A stretch of DNA of 52,542 nucleotides. It comes from Oscillospiraceae bacterium (GTDB lineage: Bacteria > Bacillota > Clostridia > Oscillospirales > Acutalibacteraceae). This document shows, in pieces, positions 9,101 through 52,399 of the stretch (its first letter is position 1; the number at the start of each line of letters is the position of its first letter). The position numbers were made by a program, and so were the translations under genes. The stretch lies in the NCBI GenBank assembly GCA_902787025.1, contig CADAER010000003.1, positions 1 to 52,542 of the forward strand, given 5' to 3'. The notes below the pieces were generated by a model. It did no database searches. It saw only the letters and a program-made list of their open reading frames with translations, and was not told the origin of the DNA.

Positions 9101-9336
9101 GCCACAACGGCAACGCTTTCACGATGCTCCGCGCGGTGACGGCGGCGGCGGCTCTCGTGCGAAACGCGGATTTCGGCGTGGTGCTTCAGATCGCGCTCTC
9201 CGTTCTCGGCTTCGCCGTATGCGCAATTTTAGCGGCGACATCCAACGTTCCGGGCGGAATCACATCCTGCCTTATCGCGGCGGCTCTCGCGGCGGCGGCA
9301 TACTTTGTTTCGGATTTAATTAACAGAAAGGATTGA
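6130..9336 (+). CDS. Degenerate P-type-ATPase-like membrane protein with long acidic N-terminus
   Basis: The protein has 1068 residues counted from the ATG at 6130, which follows GGGGTG; a GTG three codons upstream is less likely. Residues 1 to about 490 are Glu/Pro/Lys-rich, low-complexity and probably disordered. A membrane region with about eight hydrophobic helices follows. Its soluble part aligns by eye with the P and N domains of heavy-metal P-type ATPases: VVLDSGDIF (D792) sits where DKTGTLT should be, LLGNRTLL (about 873) matches the metal-ATPase GNR segment, and GKLAAMFVVSYAVD with RTND (about 942) replaces the TGD loop. The CPx membrane motif, DKTGT and the GDGxNDAP hinge are all missing. 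It is therefore unlikely to pump ions and may act as a scaffold or sensor; this is inference. It sits between rlmB and ddh in one transcription unit. Confidence 0.7.
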   Translation: MEKDNLNFDLDALLEEAKGYSSGESAPAASAAAAGSWSLDDIDALIAGLDEPAKPAPIKEEKEEKAEEEPEYEAKQIKEFPDEDVPVKEYFRKDAKPEPVAIEPAAEEEPEKEEENDGEPSFLYDSEMSEAEIDSLVSSLFGDFMPDTPKAEEAVKAVEDEDDEPATQIYENEKPVTAPVEKAEEEQEKSEPEKAAPVKEEPEKKGASQKTAEIPTAPLYEDVYSGAEPGPVDISDVPVKQEEPVEIPPEKPKGEIREFSRSKANANKLAGMVINDFVPKKKEEEKTDPDRIPDYDPLAVYMAAQKESEEAGMETDENRESFLNPMKLEDTAEIDNDFLEPIDKPGILFKKNQYEMTSDLDPLPIVISADKAKAVDRTRVATTKKEPAPEEIKDEEFPGQIKLSGFEPVPEESLPDNTSEAELEAMLSESRRHKAKDFIVSSEEIDGEPEEIDGISFEKIADETAPAEESPAPVKKKKPKKQGNGRRLYSLGKPLPEYNEPGDRRHVHSSLNAAGIICLRQLLIDALIGIVLFIFNMVAAFSETDIFCRGGAGYYIANAVLLIIAAVFNSRILMSGFNAILRGEPDASAAATAVNALIFLHITVSAAVEIRQGGDTPVFAMLGVLAFAAVSAADYFNARRIIKNFELCAYKYEKKLYTIHDFEDENEIRELSRGIMLDRADLLYSSQTDFPEGFMRYSGSGQTEIRAVKRVLPVAGVAAIVTAAVSAFISRDGLAAFTAAVGAFGLCAPLFASFIPAVSLNSAGKALNKDGAFVSGLDSAAEFTNTNGVVLDSGDIFNRTKCRMHGMVDFKQIRMDDLLVYAAALVIKSNGPLRECFENVISEDHNLLPTVRDLAYEDKLGVSARIHSQKVLLGNRTLLENHGVNVPDISLEEKYTSTGKRALYLAVCGKLAAMFVVSYAVDLNLRPYFKKLEDAGISIIVRTNDVNVTEDLLSRGFGLPKTAFCVLGSVAGRLFARRRNEVSPSAPAKLGHNGNAFTMLRAVTAAAALVRNADFGVVLQIALSVLGFAVCAILAATSNVPGGITSCLIAAALAAAAYFVSDLINRKD

Positions 9337-9341
9337 AATAT

Positions 9342-10328
9342 ATGAGTATCAGAATCGGACTTTACGGCTACGGCAACCTTTCAAAAGGCGTTGAATACGC
9401 GATTATGCAGAACCCCGACACGGCTCTCGCCGCGGTGTTCACAAGACGCGATCCCTCGACGGTCAAGACAATCACGCCCGGCGTTCCCGTTTACAAATCG
9501 GAGGACGCTCCCGCGCACAAGGATGAAATTGACGTTATGATAGTCTGCGGCGGCAGCGCCACCGATCTTCCCGTGCAGACTCCCGCTCTCGCGGAATATT
9601 TCAATGTTGTCGATTCGTTCGACACACATGTCCGCATAGCGGAGCATTTCAAGAATGTTGACAGAGTAGCGAAGGAAAACGGCACAGTCGGCGTTATTTC
9701 CGTCGGCTGGGACCCCGGTCTTTTTTCGGTTAACCACATTTACGGCGACGCGGTTCTTCCCGTGGGCAGAGACTACGCGTTCTGGGGCAAGGGCGTAAGC
9801 CAGGGCCATTCCGACGCCATCCGCCGTGTTGAGGGCGTAAAGGACGCGAAGCAGTATACGATTCCCGTTCCCGCCGCTCTCGAAGCGGTAAGAAGCGGAT
9901 CTAATCCCGACCTCACCACCCGTCAGAAGCACACAAGAGAGTGCTTCGTTGTTGCCGAGGAAGGCGCGGACAAGGCGAGAATCGAGAAAGAAATCAAGGA
10001 AATGCCCAACTATTTCGCAGATTACGACACGACGGTGACATTTATCACACAGGAAGAGCTCAACCGCGATCACAGCGGACTTCCGCACCAGGGTTTTGTC
10101 TTCCGCTGCGGCAGCATCGGCAAGGACGGCGGCGACAAGGCGATGATTGAATACCGCCTTACGCTCGATTCAAACCCCGAGTTCACGGCATCCGTCCTGC
10201 TCGCCTACGCGAGAGCGGCATACCGTCTGAGCAAAGAGGGCTTCAAGGGCTGCAGAACGGTTCTTGATATCGCGCCCTCCTACCTCACGGCGAAAACGGG
10301 CGACGACCTGTTCGCGTATCTTCAGTAA
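9342..10328 (+). CDS. ddh: meso-Diaminopimelate D-dehydrogenase
   Basis: A 328-residue NADP-dependent enzyme that reductively aminates tetrahydrodipicolinate to meso-diaminopimelate in one step, giving lysine and the peptidoglycan cross-link residue. The Rossmann segment is IGLYGYGNLSKGVEYAI (residues 5-21), followed by FTRRDP for the NADP phosphate and the family hallmarks SFDTHVRI and SVGWDPGLFSVN. Length is normal for the family (about 320-330). ATG at 9342 has AGAAAGGA 9 nt upstream; the preceding gene ends 5 nt before. The terminator at 10336 ends the transcript. Confidence 0.93.
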   Translation: MSIRIGLYGYGNLSKGVEYAIMQNPDTALAAVFTRRDPSTVKTITPGVPVYKSEDAPAHKDEIDVMIVCGGSATDLPVQTPALAEYFNVVDSFDTHVRIAEHFKNVDRVAKENGTVGVISVGWDPGLFSVNHIYGDAVLPVGRDYAFWGKGVSQGHSDAIRRVEGVKDAKQYTIPVPAALEAVRSGSNPDLTTRQKHTRECFVVAEEGADKARIEKEIKEMPNYFADYDTTVTFITQEELNRDHSGLPHQGFVFRCGSIGKDGGDKAMIEYRLTLDSNPEFTASVLLAYARAAYRLSKEGFKGCRTVLDIAPSYLTAKTGDDLFAYLQ

Positions 10329-10335
10329 AAAAATG

Positions 10336-10364
10336 AGGCTTGCAGAGTGTTGCAAGCCTTTTTT
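10336..10364 (+). terminator. Terminator after ddh
   Basis: AGGCTTGCA (10336-10344), loop GAGTGT, TGCAAGCCT (10351-10359), then a T tract. It lies 8 nt after the ddh stop. Confidence 0.92.
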
Positions 10365-10410
10365 GCGTGGAGAAGCCGGGGGTCAGGGGGAGTTTTGCGC
10401 ACGTTTATAT

Positions 10411-10603
10411 GCGGGACAAAACCCGCACGATATACGCCTGCGGCGTTCGATATATCCCGACGGGATTCGATATATTGCCTTGCGGCAATTCGATATGTTC
10501 CTTTGGAACGAGGGAACACCTCATCAGTCACTTCGTGACAGCTTTTTTCTCCGAAAACGGGAACCCTTTTGTCGCTTACTCGACATTTCCCCTGACAGGG
10601 GAA
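10411..10603 (+). repeat. Modular hairpin-array repeat, copy 1
   Basis: A dense run of short palindromes: GCGGG..CCCGC (10411-10426), ACGCCTGCGGCGT (10434-10446), ATCCCGACGGGAT (10454-10466), ATTGCCTTGCGGCAAT (10474-10489), GTTCCTTTGGAAC (10497-10509), GTCACTTCGTGAC (10527-10539), GTCGCTTACTCGAC (10571-10584) and TTCCCCTGACAGGGGAA (10587-10603). Consecutive hairpins from the second to the fifth are each separated by the same linker TCGATAT. A second copy lies at 52221-52399. The repeat keeps an open frame through it, but the protein reading is probably a by-product of the repeat. Confidence 0.85.
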
Positions 10604-10743
10604 TAACCTCAAGGGCGAGCCGAGATACGAGGGGAAATTGCAATAAAATACAATCGGCGCTTTGCGCCCGTTAATTCGGAATTGGGAATTAGGAATTAGG
10701 AATTATTAATTATAAATCCGCAAACGGATAAAGGGATGATAAT
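10604..10743. other. Intergenic tail after hairpin repeat
   Basis: No gene is seen. A GC-rich stretch is followed by an AT-rich low-complexity tract of GGAATTAGGAATTA-type units (about 10676-10705). The ribosome site AAAGGGATGATAAT then precedes the next gene. Similar AATTAGGA tracts flank the other repeat copy near 52160. Confidence 0.5.
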
Positions 10744-13083
10744 ATGAAATCTGCGGATCTGAAATCTCTCGCGGTTCTGCCCGCGGTTGTAACGGGGGGA
10801 TTCACTCCCGATATGACGACATGGGAGAATGTGCTGGAATCGGCGAAGCTTTTTCTCTCGACCGCGTTGCAGTCGGGCGTGCCGTTCAGACAGTTTTTAA
10901 GCGTGCTTTTCGCGCTCATTTACGCGGCTGTGCCCATGCTCGACAACATAACGATTCCGATTGACAAATTGATAGCGAAGCCTTTTGCCGCTCCCGCCAT
11001 TATGAGTGAATACTCATATGAGGAAGGCGGGCTTGTCGATGACGCCGATTTTTATGTCTCCCCCGATGGGGACGACACGGCTGACGGCTCTTTTTCGCAT
11101 CCGTTTAAGACGATAACCGCCGCGAGGGACGCGGTGAGAGTCCTTGACAAAAGCGGGAAAACGGGCGTGACCGTGGCGATTAAGGCGGGCGAATACCGCA
11201 CGGGATGCGTTGATTTCGGAGCGGAGGACGGGAGTGAAACCTGCCCCGTAACATATACGGCATACGGCGACGGAGAGGTTGTTCTGAACGGAGGGCTGAA
11301 AATTCCGTCATCGGCTTTTTCGAAGATTACCGACGGCGCGGTGCTTGACAGACTGAGCGCAGACGCGAAGAAAAACGCGCTGGTCGCCGACCTGTTCTCG
11401 CTCGGCGTTACGGCTGAGGATTACGGCAAAATTTACGCGATAGGCGCATACAACACGGCGTGGGCATACAGCGGCGATTATACGGGGCCTGTTTACTCGG
11501 GACTTTTCGTCAATGAAGAACGCTGTTCCCTCGCGAGATACCCCGACACGGGATTTATAAAGACGGGTAAAGTCGTCTCCGAAGGCGGAGCGGAAACGCC
11601 CGACGGTCCAGAGGGCGACACCTACGCGCCCGACAGAAAGACGGCGAAAAGGGTGGGCTCCTGGAAGACACTCGACGATGTGTGGATGATGGGCTTCTGG
11701 CGCTATGACTGGGCTGACGGCTCAACTCCCGTTGCCTCTTTTGACAAGGAAAAAGGCGAACTGAAAACAAAGTTTTACAGCCGTTACGGCACGAAGGACA
11801 ACGCGCCTTTCTTCTTCTTCAATGTGCTGGAAGAGCTTGACTCCCCGAACGAGTGGTATCTTGACCGCGAGAACGGAAAACTCTATTTTTATCCTCCCGC
11901 TGACATTGAAAAATGCAGTGTGGAAATGTCTCTCTCGACACAGCCCGTCATAAGGGTTTCGGGCACAAACGGCATTAATTTCAAAGGGCTTACGGTCAGC
12001 AACACGAGAAGCGACGCCGTCATCATAAACGGTGAAAACATCACCGTCGAGCACTGCAAGGTGAAGAACACGGGCGGTTCGGCGATTGTCGCCGACGGCA
12101 GAAATATAACCGTGCGCGATTGCGATATCCGCAACACGGGCAGGGGCGGAATATATCTTTCGGGCGGCGACACTCCGACTCTCACGCCTTCGGGCAACAT
12201 AGCCGTAAACAATCTCATCTGCCATATAAGCGAGATTTACCTGACCTATCAGCCGGGAATTTCGCTCTACGGAGTAGGCAACCGCGCAGAACACAACGAG
12301 ATTTTCGATTCCCCGCACGAGGCGGTGACATACGGCGGCAACGACAATATTATCGCATACAACCGCATACACGAGGTCTGCAAGATAACGAGCGACGCGG
12401 GCGCGATTTACGCCGGCAGAAGCTGGTGCTCCTACGGAAACAAGGTGCTTTACAACTGCATCTACAACCTCGGCACGGGCGATTTCACTCCCTGCGGAAT
12501 CTATCTTGACGACGCGCTCTCGGGGCAGACGGTTGAGGGCAACCTGCTTGTGAATATTCCGGGCGTCGCAATTATGCTCGGCGGAGGCAGGGACCTTGTT
12601 GTGAGAAACAACATTGTGGTTGCGCGCGGCGACAAGGGGCTTCAGTACGACCAGCGCGCGATTGACGGATTCTTCGGCGGATGGTTCGAGGAGCACTCGG
12701 GAAAAGACGGCAACATGTGGACGGACCTGCGCTCGTCTCCGTGGAAGACGGAAACCTGGCAGAAGGCGTACCCCGGTATGGCGAAGATAAGCGACGATAT
12801 GAACGACCCGGACAATCCGTATTTCGCGGCGAATCCCGCGAACAGCAGGGTTGACGACAACCTTTATGTCACGGGCAGGAGGACGGTCGGCGCGGTTGAT
12901 GAAAAGGTGCTGAAATACAGTGAGTTTTCGGGCAACGCCCTGTTCAGCCCGGCTCAGCTCGGCTTGCTTTTCGTTGACGCGGGAAACGGCGATTACAGGC
13001 TCAGGGACGATTCCCCCGCGACGGCTTTCTCAAAGGATATACGGTCACTTCCCATTGAACAGATGGGCAGGGTGAACGGGTGA
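10744..13083 (+). CDS. Right-handed parallel beta-helix protein, GH141-like
   Basis: A 779-residue protein. The hydrophobic N-terminus (membrane-like stretch at about 48-70) is followed from residue 102 by FYVSPDGDDTADGSFSHPF and TITAARDAVR, the typical entry into secreted beta-helix carbohydrate-active proteins. The segment VTVAIKAGEYRTG, the LEELDSPNEWYLDRENGKLY signature (about 357-376) and rungs rich in Asn/Val-Ile with the phrase GNDNIIAYNRIHEV match GH141-like and related beta-helix families, some of which are alpha-L-fucosidases or xylanases. No classical cleavable signal is obvious, so it may be membrane-anchored. Catalytic residues cannot be assigned by eye. It is a single-gene unit with a terminator right after the stop. 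Confidence 0.65.
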   Translation: MKSADLKSLAVLPAVVTGGFTPDMTTWENVLESAKLFLSTALQSGVPFRQFLSVLFALIYAAVPMLDNITIPIDKLIAKPFAAPAIMSEYSYEEGGLVDDADFYVSPDGDDTADGSFSHPFKTITAARDAVRVLDKSGKTGVTVAIKAGEYRTGCVDFGAEDGSETCPVTYTAYGDGEVVLNGGLKIPSSAFSKITDGAVLDRLSADAKKNALVADLFSLGVTAEDYGKIYAIGAYNTAWAYSGDYTGPVYSGLFVNEERCSLARYPDTGFIKTGKVVSEGGAETPDGPEGDTYAPDRKTAKRVGSWKTLDDVWMMGFWRYDWADGSTPVASFDKEKGELKTKFYSRYGTKDNAPFFFFNVLEELDSPNEWYLDRENGKLYFYPPADIEKCSVEMSLSTQPVIRVSGTNGINFKGLTVSNTRSDAVIINGENITVEHCKVKNTGGSAIVADGRNITVRDCDIRNTGRGGIYLSGGDTPTLTPSGNIAVNNLICHISEIYLTYQPGISLYGVGNRAEHNEIFDSPHEAVTYGGNDNIIAYNRIHEVCKITSDAGAIYAGRSWCSYGNKVLYNCIYNLGTGDFTPCGIYLDDALSGQTVEGNLLVNIPGVAIMLGGGRDLVVRNNIVVARGDKGLQYDQRAIDGFFGGWFEEHSGKDGNMWTDLRSSPWKTETWQKAYPGMAKISDDMNDPDNPYFAANPANSRVDDNLYVTGRRTVGAVDEKVLKYSEFSGNALFSPAQLGLLFVDAGNGDYRLRDDSPATAFSKDIRSLPIEQMGRVNG

Positions 13084-52157: not shown

Positions 52158-52220
52158 ATTAGGGGGCAGGAAGTAGGAATTAGGAGGTAGGAGTTAGGAG
52201 GTAGGAGATGGGGATTGTAT
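52158..52220. repeat. Purine-rich low-complexity tract
   Basis: Repeated AATTAGG/AGTTAGG and GGAGGTAGGAG units stand between the terminator and the hairpin repeat. Related tracts occur at about 10676-10705 and 13114-13150, next to other repeats. Confidence 0.6.
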
Positions 52221-52399
52221 GCGGGATAAAACCCGCGCGATATATCCCGACGGGATTCGATATATTGCCTTGCGGCAATTCGATATGTTCCTTCGGAACG
52301 AGGGGACACCTCATCCGTCTTGCCTTCGGCAAGCCACCTTTTTTCTCCGAAAACGGGCACCCTTTTGTCGCTTGCGCGACATTTCCCCTGACAGGGGAA
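52221..52399 (+). repeat. Modular hairpin-array repeat, copy 2
   Basis: It has the same order of hairpins as copy 1: GCGGG..CCCGC (52221-52236), ATCCCGACGGGAT (52244-52256), ATTGCCTTGCGGCAAT (52264-52279), GTTCCTTCGGAAC (52287-52299), CTTGCCTTCGGCAAG (52319-52333), GTCGCTTGCGCGAC (52367-52380) and TTCCCCTGACAGGGGAA (52383-52399). Relative to copy 1 the ACGCC hairpin is absent and the fifth hairpin has a different sequence but is still palindromic. TCGATAT linkers are kept. Confidence 0.85.

Follow-up and report, generated by a model that had tools for sequence, protein, structure and literature searches.

Short palindromes that follow one another at constant spacing between genes raise the question of what kind of element they compose and which protein, if any, reads it. 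The window analyzed here, a stretch of 52,542 nucleotides from an Oscillospiraceae contig, contains such a series, which the first-pass annotation took for a single element of eight palindromes at 10411-10603, regular beyond chance and reminiscent of REP/BIME repeats, with no named family of this design. Direct reading of the sequence bears out the alternating design: five hairpins and four 7-nt linkers form an array at 10410-10512 that closes in GAG, and the linkers between hairpins 2 and 5 are all exactly TCGATAT (Table 1). The regularity holds as well, given that all four window segments bounded on both sides by (T/G)CGATAT, two per copy, form a flush stem no shorter than 4 bp, compared with no such hairpin segment in 200 dinucleotide shuffles of the window. 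The proposed extent fared differently: the first five palindromes are the array and the last three (approximately 10526-10604) belong to another repeat, so that the boundaries were drawn too wide, 10513-10603 being a separate repeat that occurs without the array elsewhere in the same genome (L003-L007). This second dispersed repeat, which adjoins the array, has hairpins of its own (CACCTCATC..GTC..GAC..CCACCTTTTTTCTCC..CCTCAAGGG). The window yields no Rfam match at gathering score, which fits the resemblance to REP/BIME repeats without a named family.

Table 1. Repeat features of the window and the basis on which each was placed
Feature	Position	Strand	Basis or remark
Hairpin 1, TGCGGG..CCCGCA	10410-10427	+	Sequence; RNA and DNA folds
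Linker 1, ACGATAT	10427-10433	+	Sequence; its A doubles as the final base of hairpin 1
Hairpin 2	10434-10446	+	Sequence, alignment; module that, with one linker, is missing from the second copy
Linker 2, TCGATAT	10447-10453	+	Linker pattern, segment test
Hairpin 3	10454-10466	+	Segment test
Linker 3, TCGATAT	10467-10473	+	Linker pattern, segment test
Hairpin 4	10474-10489	+	Segment test
Linker 4, TCGATAT	10490-10496	+	Linker pattern
Hairpin 5 and terminal GAG	10497-10512	+	Hairpin itself 10497-10509
Different dispersed repeat, CACCTCATCAGTCAC..GTGACAGC..CCTCAAGGGCGAGCC, carrying palindromes 6-8	10518-10620	+	Outside the array
Tandem heptamers, GGAATTA-like	10673-10706	+	Separate neighbouring repeat of the type flanking other S23 genes
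Second array copy, linkers GCGATAT, TCGATAT, TCGATAT	52220-52302	+	About 240 nt from the contig end

Folding of 10405-10516 gave z scores of -3.07 as RNA and -4.52 as DNA, with no equally stable sequence among 200 shuffles in either case. The second array copy is shorter than the first by exactly one hairpin-linker module in an alignment of array copies (rows L011 and L015 of which are one copy). By eye, some relatives, such as L165 and L067, likewise have GAG after their final hairpin. The ORF upstream of the first copy (9333-10328) stops at 10328, with a terminator-like hairpin behind it at 10331-10364, and the array ends about 230 nt ahead of the next long ORF, which begins at 10744. Terminator-like hairpins, identified by eye, also precede some other copies, for example L161. 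The closest orthologues of the upstream gene (85-87% identity) align only to its stop codon; in G031 the orthologue is followed by an element-free terminator-like stretch and a different gene, so synteny differs, and no exact empty site for the window copies was found in the orthologue flanks read. Tandem heptamers of the GGAATTA / GGAGGTA type stand beside both array copies (10673-10706 and 52168-52209).

The array belongs to a sizeable family. The genome of origin (2.26 Mb in 114 contigs, 88% complete) contains 14 matches to a three-linker pattern, overlapping ones counted, with array loci on contigs C2, C3, C6, C10, C13, C26, and C55, four of which (C2, C10, C13, and C55) carry almost identical copies. 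Genome contigs in general yielded at least 119 stretches with three TCGATAT linkers; among those listed, 68 have true hairpins (at least one that is flush with the linkers and has 4 bp or more) and 51 do not, and all 68 of the hairpin-bearing ones are titled Clostridia or a family or genus thereof. Judged from these sequences, the array family is common in gut Clostridia. Hairpin arrays were also present in 8 of 81 stretches from IMG/VR, two of them (L136 and L139) doubtful on sight.

Stems differ between loci while pairing is kept. In 86 loci picked because they bear arrays, a stem of at least 3 bp forms in 336 of the 380 segments bounded by linkers (256 distinct). The 256 distinct segments, preselected for paired bases at stem positions 1 to 3 in loci that had themselves been chosen for hairpins, carry T-A (92), C-G (64), G-C (53), and A-T (47) at the third stem position and mainly G-C (129) and A-T (104) at the first. 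Rather than being confined to two copies without covariation, as the first-pass annotation had allowed for, the element thus appears in numerous species and at numerous unrelated loci, its stems varied but still paired. Loop polarity follows the linker: pyrimidine-first motifs of our choosing occur in 51 of the 256 segments compared with 5 for their reverse complements, and the first loop base is T in 186. Because the loops have polarity, a single-strand form is indicated; an element whose halves are inverted lacks a single sense strand.

Same-direction runs of two or more linkers most often contain four (86 of 155). Many arrays are two-sided: among 48 such elements, spanning 138-347 nt, 15 have the exact linker order FFFFRRRR and five the exact order RRRRFFFF, most of the others being off by one or two linkers. 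In its sequence, the window copy looks like one half of a two-sided element. Four-way junctions, in which left linkers would pair with right ones in a nested fashion, found no support (17 versus 18 of 28 in mixed elements).

The first-pass annotation also proposed a check for flanking target duplications. Run on two-sided relatives of the one-sided window copies, the check gave no general target-site duplication: flanking direct repeats of at least 9 nt surround one of 48 elements (null 2.7%) and those of at least 8 nt surround seven (null 8%). The single clear case is an 18-nt direct repeat around a phage array (L083 4352-4522, the same as L371), the terminal hairpin of which repeats part of the 18 nt in inverted form. 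By eye, the phage arrays (L364, L371, L402, and L444) lie at scaffold-capsid, terminase-portal, portal-next-gene, and capsid-next-gene junctions, placed between a stop codon and the ribosome-binding site of the next gene. Arrays occur in 4 of the 101 phage loci searched, from three contigs, with the query contigs included. At the capsid junction, the array is missing in 24 of 26 phage relatives examined, and the intergenic DNA is too diverged there for precise empty sites to be placed.

Several two-sided arrays finish just ahead of the ribosome-binding site of a gene; by eye, the array ends a few bases before it in L057, L173, L178, L184, L200, L230, and L274. The downstream genes of L057 and L184 are annotated as 23S_rRNA_IVP / four helix bundle protein (Pfam, NCBIfam) and belong to family PF05635, hereafter S23. 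HMM search identified S23 genes in 8 of the 68 listed stretches with hairpins and in none of the 51 without. Six of these eight array-adjacent genes fall in one tree clade and that of L236 in another; the L230 protein is too short for the tree, and its N-terminus resembles the main array-adjacent clade. The same HMM approach found no S23 ORF in the window. The genome of origin has three PF05635 genes, on C12, C26, and C59, and a two-sided array, degraded in part, abuts the start of the one on C26 (L274). A cognate S23 gene is accordingly present in the same genome as the window array, with a linker mismatch, the C26 array being of the GCGATAT type and the window mostly TCGATAT. The C26 gene is followed by a restriction-endonuclease-like gene that by eye resembles the one in L184, which is Mrr_cat according to Pfam.

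Cognate S23 genes were found in 6 of 60 genomes, all within the nine array-rich ones (Fisher 1.7e-6, array-rich meaning at least five array matches, a threshold picked after the counts were known). In G024, four of six array matches adjoin its S23 gene; G031, G043, and G046 are array-rich and contain no cognate-clade S23 at any of their PF05635 places, all of which were read. In viral contigs, 24 pattern matches to one S23 query were obtained and none was confirmed.

The placement of arrays ahead of ribosome-binding sites would suit a regulatory leader, that is, arrays serving as S23-binding operators in 5' UTRs for autoregulation and control of neighbours and copied only by ordinary recombination. 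The seven arrays that stop a few bases before a ribosome-binding site and the phage copies between a stop codon and the ribosome-binding site of the next gene speak for such a role; nevertheless, the first window copy comes after a terminator-like hairpin and stops well short of the next long ORF, near-identical copies lie at unrelated loci, and PF05635 insertions interrupt 23S rRNA and RNase P RNA (see below). We regard this explanation as unlikely, although it fares better than the other rival explanations.

Does the word follow the protein? Searching from PF05635 itself, we found the family at 98 places in 40 of 60 genomes, the genome of origin included; 92 of these places and nine found through arrays (L057 being in both sets) gave 101 loci for analysis of flanks. 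A 6-mer occurs at least five times within 300 nt upstream of 59 of the 97 S23 genes that have at least 150 nt of upstream sequence, versus 2 of 85 control ORFs taken from the window and chance loci, and 38 of the 97 miss this threshold. The count was reached by none of 40 shuffles in 57 of the 97, and after removal of eight array-found genes a repeated upstream 6-mer persists in 52 of 89. Heptamers akin to the GGAATTA / GGAGGTA type, which neighbours both window copies, also flank S23 genes, including L273 in the genome of origin.

The heptamer word tracks the S23 clade. With proteins of at least 100 aa (13 of the 101 loci dropped for a short protein or flank) and pairs sharing a 16-mer removed, word similarity correlates with protein identity at Mantel r 0.317 for 88 genes (0 of 999 permutations) and at 0.264 for the 80 genes found by PF05635 alone (0 of 999). 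On an S23 tree, 24 word states among 60 labelled genes require 26 changes, compared with a shuffled mean of 49.6 and minimum of 45; without array-found genes, 54 labelled genes require 26 changes against a shuffled minimum of 41. The tree is a quick one with few columns and many unresolved forks, 28 of its 88 genes have no word label, and its word list was compiled after the flanks had been seen; the Mantel test is independent of that list. TCGATAT and GCGATAT mark neighbouring clades within one starred S23 group of 12, so that the window word is common to arrays flanking a cognate S23 clade. By eye, hairpin-type words occur in several S23 clades and another group has mainly plain tandem heptamers.

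The association extends beyond the relatives of the window genome. PF05635 was detected in 29 of 149 genomes of a phylum sample (26 above the cut-off) and in 12 of 16 chance-locus genomes titled other phyla (11 above the cut-off). Upstream runs at lag 7 occur in 21 of 89 genes from relatives, 9 of 25 from the phylum, and 10 of 26 from other phyla, and in 1 of 86 controls; downstream, the numbers are 8 of 90, 7 of 25, and 14 of 27. At lag 14, the upstream counts are 28 of 89, 5 of 25, and 12 of 26, with 3 of 86 in controls, and lags 6 and 8 appear in at most one gene in S23 flanks. Period 7 is specific, and arrays of a 7-nt word, some with hairpins and some without, border a large number of S23 genes drawn from several phyla. 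The S23 gene of L519, from a Bacteroidetes bin, has an upstream repeat of 6 nt instead of 7 (GCAGTG/GCAGTA). BLAST detected downstream copies of the flank in inverted orientation for 27, direct for 16, and both for 2 of 146 usable S23 entries, a set from which 12 were skipped and in which some interrupted genes count as two pieces and some direct copies are plain heptamers.

Some S23 genes lie inside RNA genes. According to Rfam, 23S rRNA is the interrupted gene in five cases and RNase P RNA in two, all seven insertions lying in the sense strand, and inspection by eye shows heptamer repeats beside S23 in all of them, inverted on the far side in most. The split RNase P RNA genes (L500 and L502, which come from one genus and are nearly alike) each carry an S23 gene whose heptamer arrays are inverted, in analogy to the IVS of 23S rRNA. 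The sense orientation would fit retroelement-like movement by a reverse transcriptase with an S23 partner, in the manner in which Avd partners the DGR enzyme, as would the resemblance of PF05635 to Avd (PMC10053308) and the presence of RVT_1 in 4 of 10 genomes searched. We consider this route improbable, given that RVT_1 was found neither in four array-rich genomes (the genome of origin, G021, G039, and G052) nor in G012 or G024. Slightly less probable again is a passive structural array, such as a transcription insulator or nucleoid site with incidental S23 neighbours: the location of the first window copy and others (e.g., L161) behind hairpins that look by eye like terminators agrees with it, and the match of word to clade, the search from PF05635, and the period of 7 argue against it.

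Our preferred reading, to which we assign a probability of roughly 0.7, is that the array is half of a small, mobile-looking element of the S23/IVP (PF05635) family, non-autonomous and with the cognate S23 word as its linker. The conserved heptanucleotide would be the recognition word of the cognate S23 protein, and the hairpins would display it at regular spacing in a folded single strand, either RNA or ssDNA. Two-sided elements would represent two inverted half-arrays that may sit directly upstream of an S23 gene, sometimes with a cargo gene, and solo copies like those in the window would be dispersed among intergenic regions. We infer that S23 binds the word and that binding drives dispersal; the window copy would answer to the S23 gene on C26. 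More speculatively, the reader would act as a pentamer, and five hairpins with four words would fit a five-fold ring; one S23p has been reported as a homopentamer (PMC4990558), and 2rld, the only solved chain matched to S23, comes from an entry with five chains. The first-pass annotation had guessed at a mobile DNA substrate, a structured RNA, or a protein-binding array; of these, the data fit best with an array that is cognate to a protein and belongs to a mobile-looking element.

The window array falls outside each of the known classes with which it was compared, namely, IVS, REP/RAYT, Rfam structured RNAs, classical transposons or MITEs, and DGRs. With the 23S rRNA IVS it shares the protein family and the heptamers that lie beside the S23 gene in the observed rRNA and RNase P insertions; heptameric repeats upstream of the S23p start codon have been noted in one IVS (PMC4990558). 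Unlike an IVS, the window element lies between protein-size ORFs and outside any 23S rRNA gene (the window being free of Rfam matches), lacks its own S23 ORF, has hairpins between its heptamers, and exists in many solo copies. The REP/BIME and TnpA-REP (RAYT, REPtron) system similarly combines dispersed, strand-polar hairpins, a short conserved motif ahead of them, and a cognate protein (PMC8266576). However, the candidate partner of the window arrays is a four-helix-bundle protein whereas that of REP is an HuH enzyme, and the window family has a 7-nt word and variable stems; the tetranucleotide GTAG is absent from 10405-10512, where the conserved element is TCGATAT. By analogy, the array may work like REP/RAYT, of which it is not a member. 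Mobilization of a REP/BIME-type repeat by a Y1 (REP-associated) transposase is the least credible explanation, since the word tracks S23 and Y1_Tnp (PF01797) was not found in the genome of origin (88% complete), G031 (97%), or G039 (98%, 22 array matches), despite the palindromes, intergenic position, inverted pairs, and hairpin strand polarity and the detection of Y1_Tnp in 7 of 10 genomes searched. As the genome of origin and G039 carry arrays with neither Y1 nor reverse transcriptase found, such engines need not be present, and may have been present in the past.

The TAACTGA heptamer repeats of Beggiatoaceae, Cyanobacteria, and Bacteroidetes are likewise intergenic 7-nt repeats, often located just upstream of starts, the binding protein and mode of spread of which were described as unknown (PMC4679880). 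In contrast to the present arrays, they have no reported link to S23, the main text of that paper having no mention of intervening, IVS, four helix, or S23, and the hairpin-linker form does not appear in its accessible part. The DGR accessory protein Avd is similar to PF05635, structural alignment suggesting homology (PMC10053308); the window genome differs in that RVT_1 was not found there. In the accessible text of the open-access literature searched, S23/IVP is not tied to dispersed hairpin or heptamer arrays, barring the upstream heptamers of one IVS, and a term search of the available text of a paper on insertions in CPR rRNA genes (PMC11270868) returned no passage on IVP, heptamers, or repeats.

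A more general proposal, which we rate at somewhat under even odds, is that non-rRNA S23/IVP proteins might be the sequence-reading core of a widespread and so far unrecognised class of mobile elements, each clade with a seven-letter code of its own. Many heptamer and hairpin repeats of bacterial genomes that lack an explanation would then be their termini and solo copies, the ribosomal IVS would be a special case that landed in an rRNA gene, and each half-array would be read by one S23 pentamer. By 2016, IVS elements had been known for more than 25 years, and both their functionality and their origin were described as unclear (PMC4990558). With a word that varies from one protein clade to another, the DNA or RNA target of each S23 protein can be predicted, and the questions of IVS function and origin and of the TAACTGA reader become directly testable. 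An S23 protein that reads the word would link these repeats to the selfish inserts of ribosomal RNA genes, and S23-linked arrays may account for some of the simple repeats that gut metagenome bins contain. PF05635 genes have also been noted in cas loci (PMC3936711).

Several features of individual S23 loci deserve mention. In three genomes (L057, L184, and L274), the arrays are found close to or at the end of a gene that by eye looks like rlmD/rumA, and the S23 gene nearby precedes a nuclease gene of the NERD or Mrr type; this layout may reflect a preferred site and a cargo. In L057, L285, L312, L326, and L336, a direct copy of much of the upstream array lies downstream of S23, a cassette-like layout. 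The S23 genes of L295, L305, L317, L328, L337, and L350, whose pieces were kept separate, are each interrupted by a single stop codon, suggesting turnover of autonomous copies.
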